Assembly (NCBI GenBank): GCA_014896295.1
Contig: JADBKR010000008.1
Location: 1 to 64,000, forward strand
Direction of reading: 5' to 3'
Length of the DNA stretch: 64,000 nucleotides
Origin: Limnochordaceae bacterium
Lineage (GTDB): Bacteria; Bacillota; Limnochordia; Limnochordales; Geochordaceae
Shown here: positions 29,728-50,657 of the stretch, piece by piece
Position numbering within the stretch: the stretch's first letter is position 1
Layout: the number at the start of each line of letters is the position of its first letter
Position numbers and translations under genes: made by a program
The notes under the pieces: generated by a model
What the model was told of the DNA's origin: nothing
What the model saw: only the letters and a program-made list of their open reading frames with translations
Databases searched by the model: none

Positions 29728-29828
29728 CCCACCCGCCCCACGCTATGCGGGCCTGTACAGAGGGGTTACGGAAGGCCGCCACGAAGGGAGTGGAGCACTA
29801 CTCTCAAGCGTGAACGGGAGCTGGGCCA

Positions 29829-32677: not shown

Positions 32678-33061
32678 ATGCTGGCCACTGCTGCCCGGAG
32701 CGTCCGCGAGGGCGAGGACGCTCATCGCTTTGCCCGGGGGCCGGCCTCCACTCCGGGCGTCGCCCTGGAGGCCGCCACGGCGCGGCGGATGGCCGACCTG
32801 TTCAAGGTGCTCGCCGACCCTGCCCGCCTGCGGGTCATGGCTTGCCTGGTGGGGGGCGAGGTGTGCGTGCACCGCCTCGTCGAGACGCTGGGGATGTCGC
32901 AGCCGGCCGTCTCCCACCACCTGCGCGTCTTGAGGTTCATGGGCCTGGTGAGTTACCGGCGGGAAGGGCGCCACGTCTTTTACCGGCTCGACGACCGGCA
33001 CGTGCTCGACCTCTTCCTGCAAGCACTGTCCCATGCCAGCCACTCCGGGTCGGTCACGTGA
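32678..33061 (+). CDS. ArsR/SmtB-family metal-responsive repressor
   Basis: A winged-helix repressor of 127 residues: ADLFKVLADPARLRVMACLV, then GGEVCVHRLVETLGMSQPAV, SHHLRVLRFMGLVSYRREGR and HVFYRLDDRHVLDLF. EVCVHRL is the ELCVxxL-type metal motif in helix 3, and histidines and aspartates near the C-terminus could complete an alpha-5-type site. It probably represses itself and the downstream P-type ATPase until metal builds up. ATG 32678 was chosen; two GGAGG copies precede it. Only 13 bases separate it from the ATPase start. Confidence 0.9.
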   Translation: MLATAARSVREGEDAHRFARGPASTPGVALEAATARRMADLFKVLADPARLRVMACLVGGEVCVHRLVETLGMSQPAVSHHLRVLRFMGLVSYRREGRHVFYRLDDRHVLDLFLQALSHASHSGSVT

Positions 33062-33074
33062 GGACCGGGTAGCC

Positions 33075-35490: not shown

Positions 35491-36469
35491 TCAGCGCATC
35501 CACGGGGCGATGGTGTCGAGGATGTGCCGGGCACGGTGGCGGTACGAGTGCTTGCTGCACGCCTCGAGCTGGCCTGCCCGGGCGATGCGCGCTCGCTCCT
35601 CGGGGTGGTCCAGGTAGTAGCGGGCAAGCTCCAGCGTCTGAACTGGGGAGTCCGATACCACGAGGTGCTCGCCCGGCCGGAAGAGGTGAAGGTGCGCCGG
35701 CGTCTTGTGGGTCAGGTAGAACGCCCCGCACCCCAGCGCCTCGAAGGTACGCATCGCCGTCTGCGTCGACGAGCTGGCGTCGCTGTGGATCCCGAGCACG
35801 ATGCGGGCCGATGAGAAGACGACGGGCAGCTCCTCGTACGGGAGCAACCCCTTGAGCGCCCGGCCGAAGCGCCGGGGATCGACCGGGCTGCCCGGAGCGT
35901 CCCAGCCCTGCCCGTAGACGTGGACGTCCAGGCCCGCCTCCAGCAGCGGGAGCAGGATCGTCCGCACTCCCTCGCGCCGCGTGGGAAACTGCCCGTACCA
36001 GTTGGCCACCAGCACGGCATCGCACACCCTGGCCGGGTCGGGCTCGACCTTGCGGTGCAAGCCGGGCCAGCACGCAAAAGGCAGCACCTCCGCTCGCAGG
36101 CCCAAGGCCCGGTAGCGGGGCACCGCCTCGGCGGCCGTCGTAAACGTGAAGTCGCACCGCTCAGCCACCCGCCGGGAGAGGTCCCACAGGGGCGGGTCCT
36201 CGATGGCCCAGTAGACGTGGAACACCTTCTCGCGGCGCAGCACGTCGCACACGAGCCCCAGATCGACCCCCGGGAACCCCTCGGTGACGGCCAGGTCCGG
36301 CCGCCACCCCCGGACGATGTCGACCAGCCGCCGGCGCTGCACGTCGGGCGGCATGCCGAAGAGCCGGTGCTCGCCCTCGTGCACGAAGACCTCGTGGCCG
36401 AGGTCCGCGAAGCCCTCGGGCGAGCCCGTACTTGATGACCGGCGCGCAGTTGGTGAACAGCACCCGCAT
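35491..36469 (-). CDS. CgeB-like glycosyltransferase 1 (one frameshift)
   Basis: A GT-B fold glycosyltransferase of about 326 codons in the CgeB group. From ATG 36469 it reads MRVLFTNCAPVIKYGLARG, and then a one-base excess in a GGG run near 36425 moves the frame to FADLGHEVFVHEGEHRLFG. The C-terminal donor-binding domain has VVFSSARIVLGIHSDASSS, RTFEALGCGAFYLT and FRPGEHLVVSDSP, then HSYRHRARHIL. CgeB of Bacillus subtilis is needed for glycosylation of the outer spore layer. No signal peptide. It is divergent from the next glycosyltransferase and starts the glycosylation island. Confidence 0.8.
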
Positions 36470-36536
36470 GCCCGAACCGCTGCCTCGGGGCCAGGGTATG
36501 CCTCCCGGCATATACCGGAACACCGGAGGACCTGCC

Positions 36537-37328
36537 TTGCGGCACACATCGTCAGCTCGAACGGCCGGGGACGGCCCGAAGGCACCCGTCGACGTGGACC
36601 TGGTGATCGTCAGCTACGGGCGCCACGACCTGCTCGAAGCGTGCGTGGCCAGCTTCACCCGTCACACGGCCGGCTACCGGTACCGGCTCATCGTGGTGGA
36701 CAACACAGGCCCTGGCCCCATGGCCGCCCATCTCGACCGGCTCGAGCGGCAGGGAGCCCTGGTCATTCGCAACGCGGCCAACGCGGGCTACGCCCGCGCT
36801 TGCAACCAGGGCATCGCAGCGGGCAACGGGAGGTACGTGGTCCTGCTCAACAACGACGTGCAGGCGACGCCGGGGTGGCTGCCGCCCCTGGTGCGCTGCA
36901 TGGAGGAAGACCCGTCGGTGGCCGTGGCCGGCCCCCTCCTGGTGACGCCGGACGGCTACGTGGTCGGCGTACCCGTCACGGGCACCGACCTGGACCCTCA
37001 CCAGCCAGGGCTGTGGCAGCACGAGAGTGCCTGGCCCCTTCCTCGCCGCCCGGTGGCGTGCCTGACCGTGAGCGGGGCCGCCTACATGATCCGGCGCGCC
37101 TGCCTGGCGCACGTCGGGCTCATGGACGAGGGGTTTTTCCTCTACTTCGAGGACGCCGACTTCAGCCTGCGGGCCCGGCAGGCCGGCTACCGGGTCGTCT
37201 GGTGCCCCGGCAGCCGGTTGGTCCACCTCGTCTCCGCCACCGGGCGCGACCACCCGGCGCGCGACCGGGTGTACCAGGAGAGCGCCCGGCGCTTCTGGCG
37301 CAAGTGGGGAGGTTTGCCGGCCCGGTGA
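36537..37328 (+). CDS. Family 2 glycosyltransferase
   Basis: A GT-A enzyme of 263 residues. VDVDLVIVSYGRHDLLEACV opens the nucleotide-binding fold, LLNNDVQATPGWLPPLV holds the DxD-equivalent, and ACLTVSGAAYMIRR and FEDADFSLRARQAGYRV follow. This is the rhamnosyl- or related sugar-transferase type. TTG 36537 was chosen because GGAGG lies seven bases upstream. Its stop overlaps the next glycosyltransferase start (GTGA), so the two are co-translated. Confidence 0.85.
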   Translation: MRHTSSARTAGDGPKAPVDVDLVIVSYGRHDLLEACVASFTRHTAGYRYRLIVVDNTGPGPMAAHLDRLERQGALVIRNAANAGYARACNQGIAAGNGRYVVLLNNDVQATPGWLPPLVRCMEEDPSVAVAGPLLVTPDGYVVGVPVTGTDLDPHQPGLWQHESAWPLPRRPVACLTVSGAAYMIRRACLAHVGLMDEGFFLYFEDADFSLRARQAGYRVVWCPGSRLVHLVSATGRDHPARDRVYQESARRFWRKWGGLPAR

Positions 37329-38398
37329 CGCAGCTCAGGCTCACGGTCGTCTATCCCCCGACGCTGGACTGGGGGTGGATGACCCAGCGCCCCCAGCAGA
37401 TATCCTTGCGCCTCGCCCGGCGGGGCATCGGCGTCGTCTACTGCAACCTCACCCAGCGCCCCGGACGGCCTCTCGAGCCCATTTCGCCCAATTTGTGGAT
37501 CTGCCACGACTTCGAAGCGCTCAAGCGCCAGCCCGTCCCGGGTGCGGTCGTCTGGGCCAGCTGGGGCCGGCACTGGCCTCTGTTCGGCCGGTGGAACGCC
37601 CTGCTCAACGTCTTCGACAACCTCGACGACTTCGAGAGCTGGGAGAGGGACGACCGGGAAGCCGCCGCGCGGGCGGACCTGGTGCTCGCGACCTCTCGCC
37701 TGTTGTTCCAGCGCTGGGCGGCGCGCCGCCCGCACGTCTACCTGGTTCCCAACGGGTGCGACTTCGAGCACTTCCACCGCGCCGCCGTCTCTCCGCCGCT
37801 TCCGGAGCCGCCCGATCTCGCCGGTATCCCCCGCCCGCGGGTGCTCTACATGGGGGCGCTCGCCCCCTGGCTCGACGCCGCCGCCATCGAGGCCCTGGTG
37901 GCGACCTACCCCGGCACCGCCTTCGTCTTCATCGGCGCTTCCATGGGCTACGAGCCCCCCCGGCGCTCCAACGTCCACGTGCTGGGGCTCAAGCCGTACG
38001 AGGCCCTGCCTTCGTACCTGGCCCACTGTGACGCAGGGCTCATCCCTTTCCGGCCCGAACGGGTCACGAAGGCCGCCAACCCGGTGAAGCTGTACGAGTA
38101 CCTGGCTGCCGGCCTGCCTGTCCTCGCCTCCCGCCTCCCCGAGCTGGAGCCGTACGCGGGTGTCGTCCACCTGGCGGGCCAACCGCCGGAATGGGCCGCT
38201 CTTCTCCCCGCTGCGCTGGCAGACACCTCCGCGGCACGCCGTGAGCAGCGCGCCGCCGTAGCCCGGGCCAACACGTGGGACGACCGGGTGGACCAGATCG
38301 TCTCGCTGCTGCACAAAGCGATCGCCGTCAAGCAAGCCCGCGAGTCGGCCTCCGCGGTATTGCGGGTGCGCCCGCAGCCGTACGTGAAGCGCATGTAG
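37325..38398 (+). CDS. Family 1/4 glycosyltransferase
   Basis: A GT-B enzyme of 357 residues. The N-terminal half includes TQRPQQISLRLARRGIGVVY and VFDNLDDFESW; the C-terminal half has VLYMGALAPWLDAAAIEALV, VHVLGLKPYEALPSYLAHCD and NPVKLYEYLAAGLPVLAS, with the acidic donor-binding site before KLYEY. It probably adds a sugar to a surface glycan. The TQRPQ...NLDDFESW pattern is common in bacterial surface polysaccharide loci. Starts four bases within the previous gene. Confidence 0.85.
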   Translation: MTQLRLTVVYPPTLDWGWMTQRPQQISLRLARRGIGVVYCNLTQRPGRPLEPISPNLWICHDFEALKRQPVPGAVVWASWGRHWPLFGRWNALLNVFDNLDDFESWERDDREAAARADLVLATSRLLFQRWAARRPHVYLVPNGCDFEHFHRAAVSPPLPEPPDLAGIPRPRVLYMGALAPWLDAAAIEALVATYPGTAFVFIGASMGYEPPRRSNVHVLGLKPYEALPSYLAHCDAGLIPFRPERVTKAANPVKLYEYLAAGLPVLASRLPELEPYAGVVHLAGQPPEWAALLPAALADTSAARREQRAAVARANTWDDRVDQIVSLLHKAIAVKQARESASAVLRVRPQPYVKRM

Positions 38399-38446
38399 GC
38401 GCGGCTTCATAGGATGGCAAGCAGAGCAGGCGAGGAGGCGCGTGCG

Positions 38447-40756
38447 ATGGCCGTCTCCCGGGCCGCGAGTCCGCAGGGCGGGGGTCCGGCGACCAAAGTC
38501 AAGGAGATCCGGGCAGAGGCCCTCGTCCGGGAAGCCCTCGTGGTGCCCAATGCCGTAGTGGTGCAGGGGTCCGTGCACAAGCAGATCTTCTGGGTCGGCG
38601 TGGACGGCACGGTCCACCACACGCCCGAGACGCTCCCGTTCACCCAGATGATCCCCGTGCCGGGCGCCCGCCCGGGGATGCTGGCCCAGGTGCAGAGCGC
38701 GGTCGAGCACGTGGCCTTCGTGCTCTCGCCCGACGGCACCACCGTCTTCGAGAAAGTGTTGGTGCGTTCGTCGGCGGTGGCAGCCGAGCTGCAAACCATC
38801 AGCATCCGGACGGGGACCGGCCCCCTGGTCCGGGTCGACGAGTTCATCGGACAGGCGAGCGCCCAGCGGACGGTGGCCAGCCAGCACGCCCTGGCAAGCC
38901 CCGCCGTCAAGCTGACCGAGGTCCGGGCCACCCTGGAGGCGGTGACCCCTTCCGCCGGCACCGACACGGTCACCGTGACGGGACTGCTCCACTACCAGAT
39001 CTTCTACGTCGGCACCGACGGCCGCCAGCACCATCAGAGCGCCCAGGCGCCCTTCGAAGTCGTGGCCACCGTCCCCGGCTCACGGCCCGGCGATCACGCC
39101 ACCGTCTCGCTCGCCATCGTCAACCTCGAGCCTACCCTGGTCGACCCCACGACGGTGGACGTCGCCTCCTTGCTGGGCGGCACCGTGGTCGTGAGCCGCG
39201 CCCGCGACGTCAGCGTCGTGGCCGGCGAGGGGCCCGTCCTCAAACTCGCCCAGCTGGTCGGGGAAGCCCCGGTCACCGCCGGCGACACCTCCGACCTGGT
39301 ACTCAGCCGCCAGCCGGCCGCCGTCACCGGGGTCGTCACCACCATCGGCTCGGTGACCGCCCGGGTCCATCTCGGCCAGGTCTTCATCAGCGGCACCCTC
39401 GTCTACCGGGTCGACTACGTCGACGCCGGGACGGGCGAGATGCGGTCCGAGAGCTTCACGGAACCCTTTTCCGTGGCCGTGGACGTGCCGGGCGCGGCCG
39501 CCGGCATGGATGCCTCGGTCCAGCTCGACGTGACGGCCACCGTCTTCGAGCTCGTCGCGCCCAGCACCGTGCGCGTCACCGGCACCCTCTCGGGAAGCGT
39601 GGTGGTGACCCAGCTCATCTTGCTTCCCATCGAGCCGGGCACGGATCTGACCATCCTGGCCGAGGTCGTGGTCGGCACGGGCACGAGCCAGGTCCTCGTC
39701 GAGCGCCCCGTGCCCATCGTGCCCGTCGCCCCGGAGGTGCTCGAGCGGGTCATCCGGGTCGAGGAACTGGTCCCGGTGCGGGCGCAAAGCCTGGTCGAGG
39801 CTCTGGTGCCGCTGCCTCAGCCCGCCGTCAAGATCAAGGACGTGCGCGGGGAGGCCCGGTTGCTCGGCGTGGAACAGTTCGGCCCGCGGGCGCTCGGCGT
39901 GCGCGGGGTGCTCCACCTCGAGGTGTTCGTCGTCGGCACGGACGACATCGTGCACCACGTGGCGTTCGACCAGCCGTTCCAGATCCTGGTCTCCGTGCCG
40001 GGGCCCGTCGGCCCCGACTTCCGGCTCGAGCTCAGCATCGAGAAGATCCTGCCGCGCCTCGCTCAGGACGGGCGCGCCGTGAGCGTGGTCGCCGTCGTCC
40101 GGGTCTCGGGCGGGACCGCCTCGTCCCGCCAGGTGCCCGTGGTGCTCGACATCCTCGGCGCCGACGTGACCATCGACCGGATCCGGGCCAGGGCCGATCT
40201 CGTCCAGGGCGAGGCCAGCCTGCAGCACGAGGTGCGAGGCACGGTCACGCTCTCGCCCCCGGCCGCCCCCTCGGTCCCCGTGCAAGTCGAGGCCCAGCCT
40301 ACGGGCTTCAGCGTCCAGGTCGGCAACGGGCAGGCGCTGGTCCTGGGAACGGTGCGAGCCGCCCTGACCTACTCGGCGGCCGACGGTACTCTCCACCGGG
40401 CCACCGCCGAACTCCCCGTCGAGCTGGCGGTGGCGCTGCCCGGCGTCCGGCCGGGCATGACGCCCTACCTGACCGTGACGGTGACCGGGGCCCGGGCGAC
40501 GCCGGCGCCGGGCGGCGCGAGCGCCGAGGTCGCCGTCCAGCTCTCCCTGCTGGTCAAGGTCACGGAGCGGGTGGTGCTGGACCTCATCACCGACGTGCGC
40601 GGGCCCGCCGTGGTCAGCGTGGAGCGCCAGACCGTCCTGCTCGACGTGGTCGACGACGGCGTCCCCTACCCTGTGCCGGTGACCATCGTGACCCACGTCA
40701 CGCTCGCCTCGGATCCCCTCGCCGTACCGCCCGCCGCGGCCGCCGGCCCGAGGTAG
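38447..40756 (+). CDS. Five-repeat SPOCS (DUF3794) protein
   Basis: A 769-residue protein with no signal peptide or membrane span. Five SPOCS domains are visible by their core: VHKQIFWVGVDGTVHHTPE, LHYQIFYVGTDGRQHHQSA, LVYRVDYVDAGTGEMRSES, LHLEVFVVGTDDIVHHVAF and VRAALTYSAADGTLHRATA, each followed by a PF...VPG stretch. SPOCS domains build the spore coat basement (SpoVID, SipL) and similar sheaths. Between repeats are Thr/Val-rich beta strands (TVTVTGLLHYQIF). No SpoIVA-binding or LysM part is seen. ATG 38447 follows GAGGAGG. It lies among glycosyltransferases and could be their target or a coat scaffold. Confidence 0.85.
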   Translation: MAVSRAASPQGGGPATKVKEIRAEALVREALVVPNAVVVQGSVHKQIFWVGVDGTVHHTPETLPFTQMIPVPGARPGMLAQVQSAVEHVAFVLSPDGTTVFEKVLVRSSAVAAELQTISIRTGTGPLVRVDEFIGQASAQRTVASQHALASPAVKLTEVRATLEAVTPSAGTDTVTVTGLLHYQIFYVGTDGRQHHQSAQAPFEVVATVPGSRPGDHATVSLAIVNLEPTLVDPTTVDVASLLGGTVVVSRARDVSVVAGEGPVLKLAQLVGEAPVTAGDTSDLVLSRQPAAVTGVVTTIGSVTARVHLGQVFISGTLVYRVDYVDAGTGEMRSESFTEPFSVAVDVPGAAAGMDASVQLDVTATVFELVAPSTVRVTGTLSGSVVVTQLILLPIEPGTDLTILAEVVVGTGTSQVLVERPVPIVPVAPEVLERVIRVEELVPVRAQSLVEALVPLPQPAVKIKDVRGEARLLGVEQFGPRALGVRGVLHLEVFVVGTDDIVHHVAFDQPFQILVSVPGPVGPDFRLELSIEKILPRLAQDGRAVSVVAVVRVSGGTASSRQVPVVLDILGADVTIDRIRARADLVQGEASLQHEVRGTVTLSPPAAPSVPVQVEAQPTGFSVQVGNGQALVLGTVRAALTYSAADGTLHRATAELPVELAVALPGVRPGMTPYLTVTVTGARATPAPGGASAEVAVQLSLLVKVTERVVLDLITDVRGPAVVSVERQTVLLDVVDDGVPYPVPVTIVTHVTLASDPLAVPPAAAAGPR

Positions 40757-40906
40757 CAGTTAGGATTGGCGTCCTGTTTCCCACACCACCGTACCCCCAT
40801 AGCCTGGGCACCGAGCGGCGCATGTCCGGCAGGCCGCGCCGGGTCTCACCCCGGCAGGCGGCGATGAGCGCCAGGGGCGCAGCGGAAAGGGGGATGACGA
40901 AGAGCC

Positions 40907-42739
40907 GTGGCCCAGGAACATACCCTCTACGCCATGGCCGCGCTCTTGCTGATCGTGCTGGTCGCAGGAGTGTGGTGGATCAGCTCGAGGCACCACGCCA
41001 GGCCCCGCGGCACGAGGCCACCGGTCCTGCCCGGATCCGGCAAGACCAGCCGGCGGATAGGCATTTCGCCGGCTGCATCGACGACGGCAGGAGAGGTGCT
41101 GGCGGCAACGTTACCACTCGAGGCCGCTTTGCTCGTTCAGCAACAGGAAGAGGAGGTGGAAGAGAGTCCCGCCGGCCAGACGGAGGTAGCACCGCCGGTG
41201 GCGCCTGTGGACGAGACGAGCACGGATGAGCCCGAAGCGGGCGCGCCGGCACCCGTGGAAACCGTCGCCGGCGAGGTTGCCGGCGACGCCGAGGCTACCA
41301 CGGCACCGGATCCGATGGGAGACGGCACCCCTGGTGACGCGGAGCCGCCGGAGTGGGAGCCCGATGCACCACCCCCGGCGTCCTCCACCGGAAGAGAGCC
41401 GCCAATCCGGTACGAAGGAGCGATGCTCACCGTGGGTGTCGACCCGTTGGTCAAAGCGGAGGTCGTGGTCGCAGAGAACAGCCGCCAGGTGCTGCAGGAG
41501 TGGCGTACTCCCCTGCCGGCCGGGACCATCAAAGTCCGGGACATCACCCACCGGATCGTGGACGTACGCTGTGAGCTCCTGGACGACAAAGTCATCGTCC
41601 AGCTGGTCCTTGAAAAGCAGGTCTTCTACGTGGGGCCCGACAACCTGGTGCACCACCTGGGCGAGCGGGTGCCCGTGAGCACGTTCGTGGACGTGCCGGG
41701 TACCCGTCCGGGCATGCACTGCCAGCCCACCGTCACGGTGGAGCGCATCCTCTTCCATCTCGAGGACTGCGTGCTGGTGCAAAAGATCATGCTCGACGTC
41801 TTCGTGAAGGTGACGCAGCGCGAGCACGTCAACCTGGTGGAGCAGCCCGGTGGACTCCCGATCAAGGCGCTCGAGGTGGTGGCCGACGTCACCGGCCAGA
41901 TGGTGGAGGAGATCCCGGTCACGCTCAGCGTGCCCGCGATCAAGGTCGTCGAGGTGCGGGTCTCGATCCCGCCGGAGTTCCTGACCATCGAACCGATCAA
42001 CGACAAGGTGATCATCCAGGGGCTGCTCCACAAGCAGATCTTCTTCGTCGACGAGGCCAACGTCGAACGCCACCAGGCCGTCGACGTGCCCTTCAGCCAC
42101 TTCGTCGAGGCTCCCGGCACCCGGCCGGAGCACGTCGTCATCGTCGAGCCGGTGGTCGTCTTCACGGCGTTCGATCTCCTCTTCCCGGACGGCGCCAGCG
42201 CCACCACGCAGATGCTCGAGAAGGTCGTCGTCGACTTCCTGGTCAACGTGGCCCGCTTGCGCATCATGAGCGTGGTCGAAAACCCGGCAGGCGTGCTCAT
42301 CAAGGCCGAGGTGGTGCTCGGGCAGGGCACCAACCAGATCATGCTGGAGCGGGACGTCACGCTCAGCGTCGGAGCGCTCAAGATCAGCGACGTGCTGGCC
42401 CGGGTCGAGAACCTGCGCGCCATCTCCCTCCCCGGCAAAGTGCTGATCCAGGGCACCGTGCACAAGCAGCTCTTCTTCGTCGGCCTCGACGACGGGCTCG
42501 AACATCACCAGGCCGAGACGATCCCGTTCAGCGCCGTGGTCGAGGTGGTCGGCTCGGCGCCCGATCTCCTCGTCCAGGTCACCCCGACCATCGAGCACAT
42601 CCAGACGGAGCTTCTGTCCCCCACGCTGGTGCATCAAAAGGTCATCCTGCGCTTCGACGTGGTCGTAGGGGAGGAGCGCCAGGTGAGGCTGCAGACGGCG
42701 CCCTATCCCTACCCGCTACCGGTCGTACCGGGCGCATAA
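40907..42739 (+). CDS. Membrane-anchored three-repeat SPOCS (DUF3794) protein
   Basis: A 610-residue protein. A single N-terminal span (YAMAALLLIVLVAGVWWI) is followed by a basic stretch and an acidic, Pro/Ala/Glu-rich linker of about 110 residues, then three SPOCS domains: LEKQVFYVGPDNLVHHLGE, LHKQIFFVDEANVERHQAV and VHKQLFFVGLDDGLEHHQA. Conserved IKVVEVRV/IKISDV strands separate them. The layout (anchor, disordered stalk, beta domains) suggests it tethers the SPOCS layer to a membrane, perhaps the outer forespore membrane. GTG 40907 was chosen. A strong hairpin follows its end. Confidence 0.85.
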   Translation: MAQEHTLYAMAALLLIVLVAGVWWISSRHHARPRGTRPPVLPGSGKTSRRIGISPAASTTAGEVLAATLPLEAALLVQQQEEEVEESPAGQTEVAPPVAPVDETSTDEPEAGAPAPVETVAGEVAGDAEATTAPDPMGDGTPGDAEPPEWEPDAPPPASSTGREPPIRYEGAMLTVGVDPLVKAEVVVAENSRQVLQEWRTPLPAGTIKVRDITHRIVDVRCELLDDKVIVQLVLEKQVFYVGPDNLVHHLGERVPVSTFVDVPGTRPGMHCQPTVTVERILFHLEDCVLVQKIMLDVFVKVTQREHVNLVEQPGGLPIKALEVVADVTGQMVEEIPVTLSVPAIKVVEVRVSIPPEFLTIEPINDKVIIQGLLHKQIFFVDEANVERHQAVDVPFSHFVEAPGTRPEHVVIVEPVVVFTAFDLLFPDGASATTQMLEKVVVDFLVNVARLRIMSVVENPAGVLIKAEVVLGQGTNQIMLERDVTLSVGALKISDVLARVENLRAISLPGKVLIQGTVHKQLFFVGLDDGLEHHQAETIPFSAVVEVVGSAPDLLVQVTPTIEHIQTELLSPTLVHQKVILRFDVVVGEERQVRLQTAPYPYPLPVVPGA

Positions 42740-42764
42740 GGCGTACCGGAGCGCCTGGCCCATT

Positions 42765-42813
42765 CCGGCAGCGCCGGTGCCTGCCGCCTCACGGCGGGTG
42801 CCGGCGCTGCCGG
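42765..42813 (+). terminator. Long hairpin after the SPOCS pair
   Basis: CCGGCAGCGCCGG (42765-42777) pairs perfectly with CCGGCGCTGCCGG (42801-42813), and the inner arms (TGCCGCC/GGCGGG) extend the stem. No T-tract follows. It probably ends or attenuates SPOCS transcription. Confidence 0.55.
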
Positions 42814-42822
42814 TGTCATGGA

Positions 42823-43542
42823 ATGGCGAGGTGTGTCTTGCGGTCCATGGGAAACAAGCTAACGGCGGTCATGATCGCCCATAACGAGGCCGACCGCTAT
42901 CTGGGCATGGTCCTCGAGGACCTGGTCAGCTACTGCGACGAGGTCGTGGTGCTCGACAGCGGTTCGACGGATGGGACGGCGTCCCTCGCCCGGTCGTTTC
43001 CCCGGGTACGGGTCTACCGCAACGAGCGGGATCTGTTCTGGGAAGACGAGTCGGCGCTGCGCCAGCAAGCCTGGGAACTGGCCCTCGCCACCCGTCCGGA
43101 GTGGATCCTGGCCATCGACGCCGACGAGATGCTCGAGCGAAAGTTCAAGAAGATGCGCTTCCAGCTCTTGAGCCAGAAGGGGTATCACCTGCTGGGGTTC
43201 CAGAGGTTCCACATGTGGAACGGCATGAACACCTACCGCGTCGACAAGGGATGGGACAATCGCTGGGTCTACACGCCCATGATCGCCCGGGTGTTCCCGG
43301 GCAAGACGTACCGGTTCCGCCCCCAGAAGCTCCACGGAGGCAGGCTCCCCGAAAACGTGGACGGGCCGATGCTGGCGACGGGCCTGCGCTATCGCGACTT
43401 CGGGTACGTGCGCAAGGAGGACCAGGTCCGCAAGTACCACGAGTACATGGCGCACGACCCCACCGGATGCGGAGGTGTCCTGCTTGACCACTACCGGAGC
43501 ATCCTCGACCCCAACCCGGTTCTCCTTCCCTGGACGGAGTAG
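42823..43542 (+). CDS. Family 2 glycosyltransferase, SunS/WaaE type
   Basis: A GT-A enzyme of about 239 residues: TAVMIAHNEADRYLGMVLED, then VVVLDSGSTDGTASLARSF, RVYRNERDLFWEDESALRQQ and WILAIDADEMLERKFKKM, where DAD is the metal-binding DxD. A basic C-terminus (RPQKLHGGRLPENVDG) follows. Members of this group add the first sugars to proteins or lipid A cores. The start is uncertain: ATG 42823, TTG 42838 and ATG 42847 are all possible, and GAGGTG best suits the later ones. Confidence 0.85.
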   Translation: MARCVLRSMGNKLTAVMIAHNEADRYLGMVLEDLVSYCDEVVVLDSGSTDGTASLARSFPRVRVYRNERDLFWEDESALRQQAWELALATRPEWILAIDADEMLERKFKKMRFQLLSQKGYHLLGFQRFHMWNGMNTYRVDKGWDNRWVYTPMIARVFPGKTYRFRPQKLHGGRLPENVDGPMLATGLRYRDFGYVRKEDQVRKYHEYMAHDPTGCGGVLLDHYRSILDPNPVLLPWTE

Positions 43543-43602
43543 GCCTGCGGCCGCGGCACCCTCCCAGGTTACGGCCGGCCTCGCGCGGGGGTCGCGGACA
43601 TC

Positions 43603-44340
43603 GTGGTGGTGAGCTATGAGGAACTGGAGCACCTGCAGGCGTGTGTCGAGAGCATCCGGCGGCACACGCCCGGTCCCCATACCCTGACCGTGGTCGACAA
43701 CGGCAGCGGGGAGCCGATCCGGGCCTACCTGCGCTCGCTCCAGGACGCCCGGGTGCTGTGGAACGAGAGCAACCGTGGATATGCCTCGGCGTGCAACCAG
43801 GGAGCGCAGGCGGGCAACGGCGAGTACGTCGTGTTCCTCAACAACGACGTGGAAGTGACGGCCGGGTGGCTGGACGCCCTGGTGCGGGGGATGGGGTCGG
43901 ACCCGCGGATCGCCGTCATCGGGCCCAAACTGCTCACCCCCGACGGGCACATCGCCTTCGCGGGGGCCGGGGTGATGGGGACCAACCGCCACCACGTGGC
44001 GCGAGGCACGGGCCTGCCCGACGGCCCCGACGTCTTCGCACAGCCCGTCGACTGCCTCGGGCTCGTCGGCGCTTGCTTCATGATCCGGCGCAGCCTCGTG
44101 CCGGTGCTGGGGTGGTTCGACGAAGGCTACTTCTTCTACTGGGAGGACATGGACTACTGCCTCAATGCCCGGCTTCACGGCTACCGGGTCGTATACTGGC
44201 CCGAAAGCCGCGTCGTCCACCACAGCTCGGTCAGCACGGCCAGGGTAGGCTCCGCTTCGGCGACCTGGTTCCAACTCGGCCGCCAGCGGTTCGAGTCGAA
44301 GTGGCAGCACGTGCTGGACGACCCCACCGAGTACCGCTGA
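43603..44340 (+). CDS. Family 2 glycosyltransferase
   Basis: A GT-A enzyme of 245 residues closely like the one at 36537: VVSYEELEHLQACVESIRRH, LTVVDNGSGEPIRAYLRSL, VFLNNDVEVTAGWLDALV (DxD-equivalent) and FYWEDMDYCLNARLHGYRV. GTG 43603 was chosen because the frame upstream has no other start before the previous stop; ADI before it looks native, so the true start may use a rarer codon. A hairpin follows immediately. Confidence 0.83.
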   Translation: MVVSYEELEHLQACVESIRRHTPGPHTLTVVDNGSGEPIRAYLRSLQDARVLWNESNRGYASACNQGAQAGNGEYVVFLNNDVEVTAGWLDALVRGMGSDPRIAVIGPKLLTPDGHIAFAGAGVMGTNRHHVARGTGLPDGPDVFAQPVDCLGLVGACFMIRRSLVPVLGWFDEGYFFYWEDMDYCLNARLHGYRVVYWPESRVVHHSSVSTARVGSASATWFQLGRQRFESKWQHVLDDPTEYR

Positions 44341-44360
44341 ACGCCGGAGGCCTCCGGCGT
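44341..44360 (+). terminator. Palindromic hairpin directly after a stop codon
   Basis: ACGCCGGAGGCCTCCGGCGT is a perfect palindrome (8-bp stem, GGCC loop) starting at the base after the glycosyltransferase stop. No T-tract follows. Confidence 0.45.
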
Positions 44361-44434
44361 CGTGCTCGGGCCACGCAAATGCCCCGCCCGTCCCATGGCG
44401 GAGAGCGTCGTCGGCCCATAGTCTGGATTCCGCC

Positions 44435-45199
44435 ATGGTTCCAGTCGTCATCTTGTGCGGTGGGCGCGGCCTGCGCATGGCCTCGCGGTCGGGGAGCAGG
44501 CCCAAGCCCCTGGTGCCCATCGGGGGCCGGCCGATCCTGTGGCACCTGATGCAGCACTTCGCCACGTACGGCCATCGTGACTTCGTCCTGGCGCTGGGGT
44601 ACGGGGCGGCGGCCATCAAGCGGTACTTCTTCGAACAGCTCTACCTGGCAGGCAGCCTGACCCTTCGCATGGACGACCAGCTCATCCGGCGCCACGGCGC
44701 CCGCCCTCCATGGCACGTCACGATGGTGGAGACCGGGCTCGACACCCCCACCGGGGAGAGGTTGTTACTCCTGGCCCCCTACCTCGACGCTCCCACCTTC
44801 TTCGTCACCTACGCCGACGGCCTCGCCGACCTCGACCTCGGCGCGCTGCTGGCCTACCACCGGCGCATGGGGCTGCTTGCCACCGTGACGGCCGTCCGGC
44901 GAGCGGTGCCCTTCGGCGTCCTGGAGGTGGAGGAGGGCAAGGCCCGCAGCTTCCAGGAGAAGCCGCGGCTCGACGTATGGGTCAACGGGGGGTACTTCGT
45001 CTTCGAGCGCCGGGTGCTCGACGTCCTCGCGCCGGGCGAGATGCTCGAACAAGGGCCGCTCCAGCGCCTGGCGGCGCAGGGGGAGCTGGCGGTCTTCCAT
45101 CACCACGGTTTTTGGGCGTGCATGGATACCCCCAAGGATGCGGCCGCGCTCAACCGCGCGTGGAGGCAGGGTGCACCGTGGAAAGTCTGGACGGATTGA
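44435..45199 (+). CDS. rfbF: Glucose-1-phosphate cytidylyltransferase-like protein
   Basis: A sugar nucleotidyltransferase of 254 residues. VVILCGGRGLRMASRSGSRP begins the nucleotide loop (family GGxGTRL), then KPLVPIGGRPILWHLMQHFA with the catalytic-region Lys, GHRDFVLALGY and FVTYADGLADLDLGALL with the metal Asp. The GGRPILWH and YGHRDFVLALGY segments are most like RfbF, which makes CDP-glucose for 3,6-dideoxyhexoses. The GLRM in place of GTRL is unusual. The next gene is a matching dehydratase. Confidence 0.78.
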   Translation: MVPVVILCGGRGLRMASRSGSRPKPLVPIGGRPILWHLMQHFATYGHRDFVLALGYGAAAIKRYFFEQLYLAGSLTLRMDDQLIRRHGARPPWHVTMVETGLDTPTGERLLLLAPYLDAPTFFVTYADGLADLDLGALLAYHRRMGLLATVTAVRRAVPFGVLEVEEGKARSFQEKPRLDVWVNGGYFVFERRVLDVLAPGEMLEQGPLQRLAAQGELAVFHHHGFWACMDTPKDAAALNRAWRQGAPWKVWTD

Positions 45200-46200
45200 G
45201 CGTCCCGGCCGGCCCACCGTGGGCCGGCCGGCCCGTCATGGTGACGGGCGCTTCGGGGTTCGTCGGCGGGTGGCTCGCAAAGGCGCTGGCGGAGCGCGGC
45301 GCGCCGGTGGTCGCACTCGTGCGCGACGAGACGCGGCTGCTCCGGTACTGGCGCGGCGTCTGGCCCGACCTCGTGAGCGAGGTCAGGGCGGACGTCACCG
45401 ACCTGGCCGCCGTGGAACGGGTGCTGGCCGAGTACGCGGTGGAAGTCGTCTTCCATCTGGCCGCCCAATCCCAGGTCACCGTGGGCCGGTCGGGCCCCGT
45501 GGCCACGCTCGAGACCAACGTCCGGGGCACCTGGATCGTGCTGGAGGCCGCCCGCCGCACCCCCACGGTCAAGGGCGTGGTGGTCGCCTCTTCCGACAAG
45601 GCGTACGGCGACTCCACCGACCTCCCGTACCGGGAGGAGGCCCCGATGGCCGGCCGCTACCCCTACGACGTCTCCAAGAGCTGCGCGGACCTCGTGGCCC
45701 GCAGCTACTTCCACACTTTCGGCCTGCCCGTCTACGTCGCCCGCTGCGCCAACATCTTCGGCGGAGCCGACCTCAACCTGGGCCGGCTGGTGCCCCACGT
45801 CGCCGTCTCGGCCCTGCAGGGCATCCCGCCCCGCCTGCGGGGCACGGGCGAGGAGAAGCGAGACTGGCTGTACGTGGAGGATGCTTGCAGCGCTTACCTC
45901 GCCCTCGGAGAACGCGCGCTCGACGGGAAGCTCGCGGGTGAGGCGTTCAACTTCGGCAGCGGGCGGCCGTACCGGGTGCTGGACGTGGTCCACGCCATCC
46001 TGGAGCTGGCAGGGCGGCCCGATCTCAGACCGCACGTCCTGGGCCACGCCAGGGCCGAGATCCGGGAGCAGTGGCTCGATCCGGGCAAAGCCCAGAAGCT
46101 GCTCGGCTGGTCGGCGCGGTGGGAGCTGCGAGCGGCCCTGGAGGCCACTATGGGCTGGTATCGCCGCTGGCTCGAGTCGGGCCGCTCGCCGGCTGCATGA
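45178..46200 (+). CDS. NAD-dependent dehydratase/epimerase (CDP-glucose 4,6-dehydratase-like)
   Basis: An extended short-chain dehydrogenase of 340 residues. The Rossmann loop is VMVTGASGFVGGWLAKALAE; the catalytic region reads VVASSDKAYG and RYPYDVSKSCADLVARSY (YxxxK), with VFHLAAQSQV and RCANIFGGADLNLGRLVPHV. SSDKAYG and YDVSKSCADL resemble RfbG (CDP-glucose 4,6-dehydratase). Together with the cytidylyltransferase it would make an activated 6-deoxy sugar for the glycosyltransferases. GTG 45178 overlaps the previous gene by 22 bases. It converges with the CgeB-like gene. Confidence 0.8.
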   Translation: MESLDGLSVPAGPPWAGRPVMVTGASGFVGGWLAKALAERGAPVVALVRDETRLLRYWRGVWPDLVSEVRADVTDLAAVERVLAEYAVEVVFHLAAQSQVTVGRSGPVATLETNVRGTWIVLEAARRTPTVKGVVVASSDKAYGDSTDLPYREEAPMAGRYPYDVSKSCADLVARSYFHTFGLPVYVARCANIFGGADLNLGRLVPHVAVSALQGIPPRLRGTGEEKRDWLYVEDACSAYLALGERALDGKLAGEAFNFGSGRPYRVLDVVHAILELAGRPDLRPHVLGHARAEIREQWLDPGKAQKLLGWSARWELRAALEATMGWYRRWLESGRSPAA

Positions 46201-47170
46201 GCGAGCGCACGATCACCGCCAGGCGGTGGCGGAACGTATGCTCCCAGAGCGTCCTGCGGCGGGCAGCCTCGGCGATCCTCCGGCGCTCGTCGGGGTGGGC
46301 GAGGTAATACTCGATCTTCTCGGCCAGGTCTCGGGCGTCGTGGAACAGCACGACCTCCTCGCCCTCCCGGTAGAGCCGCCGGATGTCCGGCCGGGAATCG
46401 TCCACCAGCTGGAACGCTCCGCACGCCGCGATGTCGAACAGCCGGTTGTTGGGGCTCCTGGCCGGCACCCGGCGGCTGTTGCGGTTGTTGGGCATGGTCT
46501 CCGGCATGGGGTCCCGGTGGATGTTGAGGTTGATGGCCGCTCCGCAGAAGTAGCGCGCCACTTCCCCTGCGTCGTAGACCCCGGGGCGTACGAAGCGCTT
46601 GAGCCGCGGGGCCAGGGCGTCGCCCCAGCCGGTCCAGTCGCCGATCAGTTTGACGTGGAGCCGCTCGAGCGCCGGGGCTATGGCGTTGAGCAGCGCCATG
46701 CGGTTGGGGAATCCCTGCCCCACCAGGCAGACGTCGCTCCGGTAGTCGGTCGACACCGAGGACGGGCGGTAGACGCGCGGGTTGGTGCACCAGGGCAGGT
46801 AGGTCACGTTGCGGACGGCCTCCCGGTAGACCTCCACCGACGCGCTGTCGTTGGTGAAGACGTGATCCCACGGCTCGAGCCACCGCGGCGTGTGGAGATC
46901 GATCTCGTAGGGAGCCTCCGTGATCCAAACGGCGGTCCGCATACCGCGCCGCTTCGCCCGCCAGACCAGGTCCGGGTCGACGGAGCCGCCGTGCAGGGCG
47001 AGCATGAACGCCCACCGGCCCGACTCGACCAGCTCCGCGGTCAGCTGGGAGGGGAGCACCTGCGTCACACGGGCGGCGAAGCCGGCTTCCAGGGCCTCGC
47101 GGATGTGAGAGGCGAGCTCTGGGAAGCCGAACGCCGGCACGTGCGCCACCAGCAGGAACTCCGGGGTCAT
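46148..47170 (-). CDS. CgeB-like glycosyltransferase 2
   Basis: A GT-B enzyme of 340 residues. FMLALHGGSVDPDLVWRAKR, then RTAVWITEAPYEIDLHTPRW, YLPWCTNPRVYRPS, DVCLVGQGFPNRMALLNAI and RSPNNRLFDIAACGAFQLVD place it in the CgeB spore-maturation group (Glyco_trans_1_2). It overlaps the upstream glycosyltransferase by four bases (ATGA) and its 3' end overlaps the convergent dehydratase by 53 bases. Last gene of a four-gene minus-strand operon. Confidence 0.87.
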   Translation of the reverse strand: MTPEFLLVAHVPAFGFPELASHIREALEAGFAARVTQVLPSQLTAELVESGRWAFMLALHGGSVDPDLVWRAKRRGMRTAVWITEAPYEIDLHTPRWLEPWDHVFTNDSASVEVYREAVRNVTYLPWCTNPRVYRPSSVSTDYRSDVCLVGQGFPNRMALLNAIAPALERLHVKLIGDWTGWGDALAPRLKRFVRPGVYDAGEVARYFCGAAINLNIHRDPMPETMPNNRNSRRVPARSPNNRLFDIAACGAFQLVDDSRPDIRRLYREGEEVVLFHDARDLAEKIEYYLAHPDERRRIAEAARRRTLWEHTFRHRLAVIVRSLMQPASGPTRASGDTSP

Positions 47171-47995
47171 GGCCGGGCCGGCCGGTGAACGATGCGGCGA
47201 TATCGCGGCCGGTCCAGTTCCACCTCGTCTTCGAACAGGCGCGGCCAGCCGATCTGGCCGACGAGCGTTGCCCAGCGCTCGGTGAAGCGTTGCCACGAGA
47301 GCTGTTCCCATTCGGAGGCCAGGGCGCCCGCCTGCCGGGTCGACGTGCCCTTGCGGTGTTCCACGAAGACGTCCTCGGCCACGAGGAGGTCGAAGCCGGC
47401 CAGCCTGGCCCGCAGGCTCCAGTCGAAGTCGTCCGCCCCCAGGAGCATGCTCGCGTCGAGGCCCCCCACCGCCGAGCGCGCCGCCGGCGTGATCAACAGG
47501 CAGCACCCGATGAGGAACTTGACCGTGCGAAAATGCCCCCGGCAGGCTCTGGTAAAGCCGCTCGACGAACTGGTCGAGCTCCTGGGTGCCCTGCGGGGAG
47601 GCAAAGGGCGCGGCCCCGTAGAGGCCGTACTCCTGGGGGCCCCCGATGAGGGAGCCAAGGGGGCCGACCGCCCCCACCTGCTCCGTATCGGCCATGTGGG
47701 CCGCCAGCCGCACGTCCCAGTGCGGGCCCACCAGCACGTCCGGGTTGAGCAGGATCGCCGGCGCGTCCGCCGGCACCTGCGCGAGCGCCTGGTTGGCGGC
47801 CTCCGAGTAGCCCCGGTTGGTGGCATTGACGATGAGCTCGATGCGGTGCGCGGCCGAGGCCCGGATCCGCTCGAGGTGCCGGCCGGTGCCGTCGGTCGAG
47901 CCGTTGTCCACCACGACCATGGCGGTGTCCGGAGCGCAGTGGCGGTCGAGCCGTTCGAGCACCGCGGGGAGCGTGGCCATGCTGTTGTACGTCAC
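47167..47995 (-). CDS. Family 2 glycosyltransferase (one frameshift)
   Basis: A GT-A enzyme. The first frame gives VTYNSMATLPAVLERLDRHC, AMVVVDNGSTDGTGRHLERI and ILLNPDVLVGPHWDVRL; the second, after a shift near 47540 at a C-rich run, gives VKFLIGCCLLITPAARSAVG, GADDFDWSLRARLAGFDLLV and VEDVFVEHRKG-like sequence. Similarity continues across the shift, so a sequence error is likely. The start is doubtful: GIYVCL precedes GTG 47995 in frame and looks native, so a CTG start near 48025 is possible. Confidence 0.78.
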
Positions 47996-48026
47996 CAGGC
48001 AGACGTAGATGCCGGACCGGCTCAGC

Positions 48027-48698
48027 TCAGCTTCCCTCCCCGTCCGCCACGGGGTAAGCCACCACGTAGTAGACCCAGTGGGTGGCCTCGTCCCGCACCC
48101 GATCCGCGTCGAACCCCGCCGAGCGCAGCCCTTCCAGGATCACGGCGGGGACCTCCCCGCAGATCGGGCTTACCATCGGAGCCATCTGCTGGATGCGATA
48201 CCCGCTCGATTCGAACAGCCGCACGATCCCGCGCCGGGTGAAGAAACGCAGGTGCGTGGCGTCCAGCAGCCCCTGCGGCTGGTAGACCCAGTCGCCCTCG
48301 AGCAACCCCTTGAGGACGCACCAGTGAGCGACGTTGGGTACGCTCGCCACGACGTACCCCCCATGGGCCAGGCAACGGCGCAGCGCCCGCAGCACCCGCC
48401 AGGGGTCCCGCAAGTGCTCCAGGACGTCCGCCGCCAGGATGCAATCGTAGGCGCGGGCCGGCAGGGCGTCCACCAGCTGCTCGATGTCGCCGGCGATCAC
48501 CTCGTCGATGCGCCGGCGGGCCTCCTCGGCCGCCTCCCGGTTGATCTCCACGCCCGTGACCCGGCACGGCCGGGACCGTTTCAATGCTTCTCCGACCAGC
48601 CCCGGGCCGCATCCCAGGTCCAGGATGGTACGGCAGCTATCGCGGACGAGCCCTCGCACGTCCGGCCGGTCCGTGTAGTAGCTCCAGTCGATCGGCAT
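48027..48698 (-). CDS. SAM-dependent methyltransferase
   Basis: A class I methyltransferase of 223 residues: ILDLGCGPGLVGEALKRSRP binds SAM, VTGVEINREAAEEARRRIDE holds the acidic residue, and YDCILAADVLEHLRDPWRVL and GYVVASVPNVAHW follow. The C-terminus HLRFFTRRGIVRLFESSGYR is typical of methyltransferases in surface glycan loci, which methylate sugars. It overlaps the CgeB-like gene 3 by 62 bases. Confidence 0.88.
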   Translation of the reverse strand: MPIDWSYYTDRPDVRGLVRDSCRTILDLGCGPGLVGEALKRSRPCRVTGVEINREAAEEARRRIDEVIAGDIEQLVDALPARAYDCILAADVLEHLRDPWRVLRALRRCLAHGGYVVASVPNVAHWCVLKGLLEGDWVYQPQGLLDATHLRFFTRRGIVRLFESSGYRIQQMAPMVSPICGEVPAVILEGLRSAGFDADRVRDEATHWVYYVVAYPVADGEGS

Positions 48699-49722
48699 GC
48701 TCCGCCCCCTCCCTTCCCCGCGCCCCGAGGGAGGCGACGATGCGCAGCATCCGGCGGATGCGGTGGTCGTACGTGTGCTCGGCGAGGACGCGCCGGCGGG
48801 CGCGCTGGGCCATGGCGCGGCGCAGTTGGGGGCGGCCCAGGTAATGGCGGAGCTTGGCAGCGAGATCCTCGGGGCCACGGAAGACCTCAATCTCTTCCCC
48901 CGGGCGGAAGTAGCATGGAAGGTCGGCCCGGGTATCGTCCACGAGCTGGAAGCCGCCGCACGCCGCCACGTCGAAGGTGCGGTTGTTGGGGGAAACCGCC
49001 CCCACGTGGGAGGCGTTGAGGTTCTCGGGCAGGTCGTGAGGGCCGGGCAGGCGGTGCACGTTGAGGGTAATGGCGGCCCTCGAGTAGAGGCGAGCTTCCG
49101 CCTCGGGCCGGCCCGTGGGCGGCCGCACGAACCTTCGAAGGCGCGGATCCAGCGGCACGTCCCACCGGTCCCACGGGCCCACGAGCTCGACCCGTAAAGT
49201 CGCGAGCAGGTCCGCCACCCCGTTGAGCAGCCGTACCCGGTGCGGAAAGCCGCTTCCCACGAAGACCACGTCCAGCTCCTCGGGAGGGCCGACCCGCTCG
49301 GGGCGGTAGGTCTGCGGGTCGGTACACCACGGCAGGTGAACGCCCCGGCCCGGCCCGTAGCGATCGACCGCCATTCTCTCGTTGGTGAAGACCACGTCGA
49401 ACGCACCGGCCCACGCCTCGGGGCGCCGGTCGATGGTGTACGGGTCCTCCGTCACCCAGGCCGCCACGACCCGCCCCAGCCGGCGCAGGGAGCGGGCCGT
49501 GGCGGCGTCGAGCCGTTCGCCGCCCAGCACCAGCACCAGATCCCAGGGAGCCGGCGCGTCCCACCCATCTCGAGCCGCAAGGCCGTCGAGCAGGATCGCC
49601 GTCGAGGTGCGGGCAGTCATCACGCCCGCCCGGCGCAGTGCCGCCAGCACGGCCCGCTCGAACCCGGCAAACCAGCCGCCGAATCCCGTTCCGATGACGA
49701 GCGCGCGGGGAATGGTTGTCAC
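48637..49722 (-). CDS. CgeB-like glycosyltransferase 3
   Basis: A GT-B enzyme of about 361 residues: RALVIGTGFGGWFAGFERAV, AAWVTEDPYTIDRR, VHLPWCTDPQTYRPERV, DVVFVGSGFPHRVRLLNGV and VSPNNRTFDVAACGGFQLVD. It is the closest relative of CgeB-like 2 in this window and probably arose by duplication. GTG 49722 was chosen; the frame stays open to 49893. First gene of the minus-strand operon and divergent from the CAP gene. Confidence 0.85.
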   Translation of the reverse strand: MTTIPRALVIGTGFGGWFAGFERAVLAALRRAGVMTARTSTAILLDGLAARDGWDAPAPWDLVLVLGGERLDAATARSLRRLGRVVAAWVTEDPYTIDRRPEAWAGAFDVVFTNERMAVDRYGPGRGVHLPWCTDPQTYRPERVGPPEELDVVFVGSGFPHRVRLLNGVADLLATLRVELVGPWDRWDVPLDPRLRRFVRPPTGRPEAEARLYSRAAITLNVHRLPGPHDLPENLNASHVGAVSPNNRTFDVAACGGFQLVDDTRADLPCYFRPGEEIEVFRGPEDLAAKLRHYLGRPQLRRAMAQRARRRVLAEHTYDHRIRRMLRIVASLGARGREGAEHADRLELLHGPAGRARARPR

Positions 49723-49925
49723 CCCGTGCAGGATACGGGGAAGCCGCCGGAGGGGTGCCAGCACCGGAGGGCTGCCCCACGGGAGGCCGGCCGGCGGGTG
49801 CACTGCCAGCGATCTACCCCTGCCATCACACTGGAGGACCGGGATAATCGAACGAGGAACGGGACGTTTCCAATCCGATACCACCCGGCCCACGGGAGGG
49901 GCAACGGAAAGGGGCCCTTCCCGTC

Positions 49926-50657
49926 ATGCGCATGCGCCTTCCCGTGGCGCTCGGCCGGCCGCCGGGCGTCCTCTCGCTGGCAGCCGCCGTATGCCTCGTG
50001 CTCACGGCTCCGGCGCTCGCCGCTACGTGGTCGTCCTCGGGTTCCGGCACGTGGCGTTCCGCGCCCGTGACCTCCTGGCAGCCGTGGAGCTCGTGGTCGT
50101 CGAGCCCTTCCGGCACCTACACGTGGCGGCCCGGCACCGGCTCCGGCTGGTGGACGAGCCGGCCCGGCACCCCCAATCCGGGGACCTGGTATCCCGCTCC
50201 GCAGCCCCCTTCGACCCAGCCGCAGCCCCCTCAGCCGCAACCGCCCCGGCCTCCTGAGTCGTCTCCGGTCGTCGACCCGGCATCGGAAGAGACCCTCGCG
50301 AGCCTGGTCAACCAGGCCCGAGCTGCGAGCGGCCTGGCCCCACTGTCGGTGGATCCCACCCTGCGGGAGCTGGCACGGCGCAAGAGCCTCGACATGATCC
50401 AGCGCAACTACTTCGGCCACGACTCCCCCACCTGGGGCGGGCTCGCGCAGCTGCTCGCCATGGGTAACGTCCACTACATCTACGCAGGCGAGAACCTGGC
50501 CGGAGCGCCCAGCGCCCAGTCGGCTCACCAGAGCCTCATGAACAGCCCCGCCCACCGGGCCAACATCCTCAACGTCCACTACACCCACATGGGCATCGGG
50601 GTCGTCCGTGGAGGCCCGTACGGGCTGATGGTGACCGAACTGTTCGTCGGTCGCTGA
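49926..50657 (+). CDS. Secreted CAP-domain protein (YkwD/SafA-associated type)
   Basis: A 243-residue protein. A signal peptide (LSLAAAVCLVLTAPALAATW) is followed by a Trp/Ser-rich and then a Pro/Gln-rich stretch, then a CAP domain from about residue 115: LVNQARAASGLAPLSVDPTL, NYFGHDSPTWGG, IYAGENLAG and MNSPAHRANILNVHYTHMGI. The CAP His and Glu are present. In Bacillota these proteins are exported, often in sporulation or on the cell surface. GGAAAGGGG precedes ATG 49926. Confidence 0.9.
   Translation: MRMRLPVALGRPPGVLSLAAAVCLVLTAPALAATWSSSGSGTWRSAPVTSWQPWSSWSSSPSGTYTWRPGTGSGWWTSRPGTPNPGTWYPAPQPPSTQPQPPQPQPPRPPESSPVVDPASEETLASLVNQARAASGLAPLSVDPTLRELARRKSLDMIQRNYFGHDSPTWGGLAQLLAMGNVHYIYAGENLAGAPSAQSAHQSLMNSPAHRANILNVHYTHMGIGVVRGGPYGLMVTELFVGR

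Follow-up and report, generated by a model that had tools for sequence, protein, structure and literature searches.

Multi-SPOCS proteins linked to glycosyltransferases in a Limnochordaceae bacterium: a probable locus for building and glycosylating a spore-surface layer

A 64-kb window (the whole stretch of DNA analyzed) from a Limnochordaceae bacterium contains, at positions 35491-49893, an island of 13 genes in which two large SPOCS-domain proteins, SPOCS-A and SPOCS-B, lie among eight glycosyltransferases. These comprise three CgeB-type enzymes, four of family 2 (GT2) and one of family 4 type (GT4). We propose that the island is probably a sporulation-specific locus of the mother cell, which serves to construct and glycosylate a protein layer of the spore on a membrane-anchored SPOCS scaffold. 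A previous sequence-only reading had already suggested a spore-surface glycosylation island. Pfam and TIGRFAM profiles found all of the gene types it had named at those coordinates: both SPOCS proteins score above the PF12673 gathering threshold, all three CgeB-like glycosyltransferases match PF13524, and the methyltransferase and the adjoining secreted CAP protein were both found by profile. The suggestion is further supported, in part, by the recurrent linkage of SPOCS and glycosyltransferase genes and by the spore context (sigma-K-type promoters, Spo0A, SpoIVA and SipL), although one of its labels, a SunS-type glycosyltransferase, proved wrong.

Linkage was tested with iterated profiles on pooled proteins, using the non-SPOCS genes near multi-SPOCS proteins across Bacillota, with the genes beside SipL and randomly chosen regions from those genomes as controls. 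Glycosyltransferases account for 117/999 genes near multi-SPOCS proteins, compared to 1/314 in random regions and 0/271 beside SipL (Fisher p ~1e-13); the linkage whose absence from relatives had been named as evidence against the spore-surface reading is thus present. The odds of finding a glycosyltransferase gene at SPOCS loci are ~40-fold those of random regions. Their frequency drops from 20.8% in the nearest 2 kb through 12% and 3.7% to 1.5% at 6-8 kb, the excess fading beyond 4 kb. As the loci are related, they were collapsed into identity groups, a group being counted if most of its members have glycosyltransferases. Such groups number 27/55 at 90% identity (p=5e-7) and 10/30 at 70% (p=9e-4), against 1/37 controls. 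The linkage is real but not universal, because the collapsed groups keep the excess, yet a glycosyltransferase lies within 3 kb at 44/81 multi-SPOCS loci. The window, with its eight glycosyltransferases, is the richest locus seen.

Clustering of the neighbors without prior labels gave a GT4 glycosyltransferase as the commonest cluster (32 loci) and a CAP protein as the second (24 loci); CAP genes in total occur at 28/81 multi-SPOCS loci. The glycosyltransferase families near SPOCS genes vary by lineage. GT4-type homologues are found at loci L038, L086, L087, L094 and L102, CgeB at L079, L085, L102 and L189, and the GT2b family in Fervidicola, Thermovorax and Tepidanaerobacter; in named Tepidanaerobacter-group isolates, the SPOCS genes have a GT2b-family gene and a GT4 gene between them. 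GT4 arrays with short-chain dehydrogenase/reductase or NTP-transferase genes occur at L108, L120, L121, L128 and L178; these loci and L125 have three to six glycosyltransferases within 4 kb of tandem SPOCS genes, in addition to sugar-nucleotide-type enzymes. The GT2 matches at L135, L136, L139 and L141, marginal at 58-122 bits and more than 3 kb away, were given no weight.

Three protein families without a name also recur at these loci. A 500-720-residue protein lies between the SPOCS pair and GT4 at ~20 loci of L070-L093 (clusters c16, c22 and c83, e.g. L070:11887-13896); c83 is very weakly SPOCS-like, and the protein is possibly a diverged third SPOCS protein. A ~140-residue protein is found beside SPOCS genes of different lineages, mostly on the opposite strand, at L072:1919-2341, L038:7664-8068 and ~13 more loci. 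The third, of ~150 residues, lies between SPOCS and glycosyltransferase genes at L102:15917-17751 (three copies), L104-L106, L113 and L117; with a weak BsaA/SipW-type match below the cut-off, it is a candidate for a glycosylated structural protein.

Promoter analysis points to the mother cell. A sigma-K-type element, which is of mother-cell type and was defined as AC-N16/17-CATANNNT, precedes 29/94 deduplicated SPOCS genes, compared to 4/146 control genes (p=7e-10). Alignment of these sites yields the logo gCATAtaaTa, with an A/C-rich -35 region ~17-20 bases before it, and they lie mostly 25-60 bp 5' of the start. The window is GC-rich, and only 0.11 CATANNNT elements would be expected in the 803 bp of intergenic DNA of its island; there are three (P=1e-4), all in sense orientation, upstream of cgeB1, SPOCS-B and rfbF. 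Outside the island, only 1/33 upstream regions has such an element: AC-N16/17-CATAGCGT, at 29747 on the minus strand, precedes a SleB-like cell-wall hydrolase (PF07486, 29275-29727), which is probably a spore gene.

SPOCS-A matches PF12673 in four stretches (125 bits) and SPOCS-B in three (117 bits), against a cut-off of 23.6. SPOCS-A is soluble and cysteine-free, and SPOCS-B has three cysteines; Pfam found no LysM domain in either. The AlphaFold model of SPOCS-B consists of an N-terminal helix (residues 2-30), a disordered linker of ~140 residues and three confident β domains, with block means of 93-97 for the predicted local distance difference test over the SPOCS domains. The helix is a predicted membrane anchor. 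A hydrophobic N-terminal segment is also found in about two dozen SPOCS proteins from other lineages, mostly the second of a pair, and is often followed by positive charges; by the positive-inside rule, the SPOCS array would face the cytosol, the site of mother-cell coat assembly. A fold search of the PDB with this model gave no match at E<=0.001, and a sequence search of the PDB gave none for SPOCS-B alone and two weak ones (E 0.025 and 0.036) for an alignment profile. The pair is not a SipL duplicate, as the genome has a separate LysM-bearing SipL and both proteins lack LysM. Resemblance to the two proteins of L038 did not separate the first from the second SPOCS protein of each pair, the repeats cross-matching.

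The genome encodes only three strong PF13524 genes (117-123 bits genome-wide), all inside the island, the next-best scoring 42 bits; matched as island genes, the three score 113-120 bits. The RfbF-like and RfbG-like proteins are sugar-nucleotide enzymes, since TIGR02623 (244 bits) and TIGR02622 (187 bits) are by far their best matches; as these fall below the equivalog cut-offs of 300.25 and 278.45 for the CDP-glucose pathway, the two are called RfbF-like and RfbG-like only. By contrast, the SunS peptide S-glycosyltransferase label for GT2b was rejected: TIGR04195 scores 32 bits of the 350 needed, over the N-terminal GT2 region only. A 615-residue open frame at 46148-47995 resembles a GT2-CgeB fusion; it is not a real one, because it results from a frameshift relative to the sister strain G072, where GT2d and cgeB2 are separate. 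No transmembrane segments were predicted in the island glycosyltransferases, and the island genes include no initiating phosphoglycosyltransferase, flippase, polymerase or ABC exporter. None of the proteins is a multi-pass membrane protein, a single hydrophobic segment being found only in SPOCS-B and in CAP. Membrane-free glycosyltransferases without flippase, polymerase or exporter fit protein-linked glycosylation in the mother-cell cytosol better than an exported polysaccharide.

We infer timing, location, polymerization, sugar identity and acceptor as follows. The N-terminal helix would anchor SPOCS-B in a membrane that borders the mother-cell cytosol, the outer forespore membrane being the likeliest, and SPOCS-A and SPOCS-B would polymerize or tile via their SPOCS arrays. 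The RfbF-like and RfbG-like enzymes would produce an activated deoxysugar, which the methyltransferase may cap, while the eight cytosolic glycosyltransferases would put sugars on coat-layer proteins in the same compartment. An exporter would be unnecessary, coat assembly taking place in the cytosol of the mother cell.

Several observations weigh against this proposal. At 60% identity, the collapsed groups with glycosyltransferases fall to 5/20 against 1/37 controls (p=0.017 only), and 37/81 multi-SPOCS loci have no glycosyltransferase within 3 kb. The island elements are -10 halves only, the -35 'AC' being absent at consensus spacing. The upstream regions of CAP genes show a vegetative-looking TATAAT without sigma-K-type enrichment, and for this reason CAP may be a mere conserved neighbor and not a sporulation gene. 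CgeB-type glycosyltransferases form a broad family in use outside spores as well, and PF13524 was found in 14/14 control genomes; for the island enzymes, a part in crust glycosylation such as B. subtilis CgeB plays is a possibility. Two glycosyltransferase genes, cgeB1 and GT2d, are frameshifted in this assembly relative to G072. Finally, across the class (73 genomes) the pair turns up in a single further family, and so is dispensable for sporulation.

It is quite possible, if somewhat against our expectation, that the locus makes a spore-surface polysaccharide and that the SPOCS proteins, themselves unglycosylated, bind or anchor a separate glycan or another glycoprotein, such as CAP or a structural protein encoded elsewhere. 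This alternative overlaps the favored reading, hence the confidences in the two do not add up to one. It agrees with the Ser/Thr content, which is 14% in SPOCS-A and 10% in SPOCS-B, neither being Ser/Thr-rich, and 18% in CAP, as well as with the recurrence of CAP genes and the ~150-residue protein of the Tepidanaerobacter group and L102. Yet neither the window nor most loci have that family, CAP upstream regions are not sigma-K-like, and the sole constant partner of the glycosyltransferases is the SPOCS proteins. We consider it unlikely that the island serves vegetative cells, as a locus for cell-surface polysaccharide or S-layer glycosylation in which SPOCS-domain proteins are incidental. O-antigen and S-layer glycan loci typically have RfbF/RfbG, GT2, GT4 and methyltransferases, CgeB-type enzymes also occur there, and L038 has an O-antigen-ligase-like gene nearby; however, the export and membrane components listed above are absent from the island, sigma-K-type promoters lie upstream of SPOCS genes, and to our knowledge SPOCS domains have been characterized solely from spore morphogenetic proteins. 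Chance adjacency of a mobile glycosyltransferase cluster, without functional link, would account for the absence of the pair from two genomes of the same family (G001 and G002) and of any island beside the DUF1028 genes of G001, but is very improbable and largely refuted already by the differing glycosyltransferase families across lineages, the distance decay, the null controls and the strict conservation in G072.

The favored mother-cell reading suits the sporulation background of the genome, which encodes SpoIVA (E=1e-110), Spo0A-type proteins and a SipL of its own, which bears both SPOCS and LysM domains, near C8:539-540.6 kb (L043:6799-8565). In most genomes of the class, SipL-type proteins of ~550 residues are all that is seen, the multi-SPOCS pair being found only in G000, G072 and G015, the last from another family. 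The G015 locus, L038, has a CAP orthologue and two GT4-type genes; spoVAC and spoVAD directly adjoin its SPOCS pair (L038:15990-17501). An empty-site search via DUF1028 and CAP in G001 and G004 located no site, the flanks being without synteny. Beyond the class, matches were found in 122/398 genomes of a phylum sample, and 84,980 prokaryote genomes, when scanned, gave 73 loci. The lineages with these 73 loci are Hydrogenispora-type metagenome-assembled genomes, Halanaerobiales, Frackibacter, Fuchsiella, Thermovorax, Fervidicola, Tepidanaerobacter, Symbiobacterium and Thermaerobacter. In Frackibacter and Fuchsiella (L098 and L100), SPOCS-domain genes of varied lengths form tandem runs with CAP genes upstream.

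Among described systems, SPOCS proteins are known as spore morphogens: Clostridioides difficile SipL (CD3567) has three SPOCS (DUF3794) domains and a C-terminal LysM required for SpoIVA binding (PMC6436350). SPOCS-A and SPOCS-B share the domain arrays of SipL and SpoVID but lack LysM, SPOCS-B has an N-terminal membrane helix, and no glycosyltransferases flank SipL. CsxC of Clostridium sporogenes, found in purified exosporium, has 273 residues and 14 cysteines (PMC4942563), compared to 780 residues and none in SPOCS-A and 610 and three in SPOCS-B; both window proteins match it weakly in the SPOCS region (NF045794, E ~3e-4), at 20.6 and 21.0 against a cut-off of 135. In Bacillus subtilis, the crust loci cgeAB-cgeCDE, spsA-L, yfnHGFED and ytdA-ytcABC place mother-cell glycans covalently on crust proteins, with CgeA as glycoprotein anchor (PMC7439481, PMC11708026). 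They resemble the island in combining glycosyltransferase and sugar-nucleotide genes, but differ in scaffold, which consists of CotV/W/X/Y/Z and CgeA instead of SPOCS proteins. No SPOCS array is known to us in these operons. In C. difficile, SgtA glycosylates the spore-surface protein BclA3 (PMC7157674), one glycosyltransferase with a BclA-type protein compared to a SPOCS pair with eight. The literature searched, which leaves out most subscription journals, describes no SPOCS-glycosyltransferase system, in agreement with the sequence-only reading that no tandem-SPOCS sugar locus had been described; the arrangement is nevertheless not unique, since dozens of relatives share it.

The genome measures 2.89 Mb and is 97% complete; the window is part of one of its contigs, of 773 kb. 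The island is flanked by a heavy-metal ATPase (33033-35477) and the CAP gene. Its plus-strand run comprises GT2a, the GT4-type gene, SPOCS-A, SPOCS-B, GT2b, GT2c and the RfbF-like and RfbG-like genes; cgeB1 forms the left end, divergent from this run, and cgeB3, the methyltransferase gene, GT2d and cgeB2 converge on it (Table 1). G072, a single 3.3-Mb contig of the same species, keeps the entire island at ~98% identity, with cgeB1 intact (325 residues). Outside the island, a 684-residue frame at 23418-25472 joins a major facilitator superfamily transporter to an ArsR/helix-turn-helix-type domain.

Table 1. Features of the island and the adjoining CAP gene, in window coordinates
Feature	Position	Strand	Remarks
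cgeB1, CgeB-type glycosyltransferase	35491..36469	-	PF13524 (match listed at 35491-36585) and partial DUF3880; frame broken near 36412
sigma-E/K-type -10 element CATACCCT	36493..36500	-	~31 bp 5' of cgeB1 start as in G072
GT2a, family 2 glycosyltransferase	36594..37328	+	opens plus-strand run
GT4-type glycosyltransferase	~37301..38398	+	PF13692, weakly TuaH-like; exact start uncertain
SPOCS-A, 780 residues	38414..40756	+	Pfam SipL/SPOCS 1.2e-36, at least 4 domains
sigma-E/K-type -10 element CATAGCCT	40798..40805	+	109 bp 5' of SPOCS-B; present in G072 too
SPOCS-B, 610 residues	40907..42739	+	Pfam SipL/SPOCS 3.6e-34, 3 domains
GT2b, family 2 glycosyltransferase	42823..43542	+	Pfam
GT2c, family 2 glycosyltransferase	43603..44340	+	Pfam
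sigma-E/K-type -10 element CATAGTCT	44417..44424	+	18 bp 5' of RfbF-like gene
RfbF-like sugar-1-phosphate nucleotidylyltransferase	44435..45199	+	TIGR02623
RfbG-like nucleoside diphosphate-sugar 4,6-dehydratase (epimerase/dehydratase)	45196..46200	+	TIGR02622
cgeB2, CgeB-type glycosyltransferase, ~340 residues, start MTPEFLLVAH	46148..47170	-	PF13524 and partial DUF3880
GT2d, family 2 glycosyltransferase	47167..47995	-	frameshifted here; 275 residues, intact in G072
class I S-adenosylmethionine methyltransferase	48027..48698	-	Methyltransf_23
cgeB3, CgeB-type glycosyltransferase	48637..49893	-	PF13524; start uncertain
secreted CAP protein, YkwD-like	49926..50657	+	nearest TIGR02909 spore_YkwD, 137 bits against a cut-off of 171

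Spore-surface glycan layers are understood chiefly in Bacillus and C. difficile, and their scaffold proteins CotX/Y/Z, CgeA and BclA are not known to be shared by distantly related spore formers. We tentatively propose, at a little short of an even chance, that non-LysM, membrane-anchored multi-SPOCS pairs scaffold a widespread, undescribed spore glycoprotein layer in deep-branching Bacillota, into which lineage-specific cytosolic glycosyltransferases are plugged; as part of the same proposal, this layer might be a counterpart of the Bacillus crust made from unrelated parts. The arrangement occurs in the cultured isolates Fervidicola ferrireducens, Thermovorax subterraneus and Fuchsiella alkaliacetigena, and it hints at a function for multi-SPOCS proteins, for whose fold no solved structure offers a convincing match. 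If true, a SPOCS scaffold with lineage-specific glycosyltransferases would offer an entry to how distant spore formers sugar-coat their spores.

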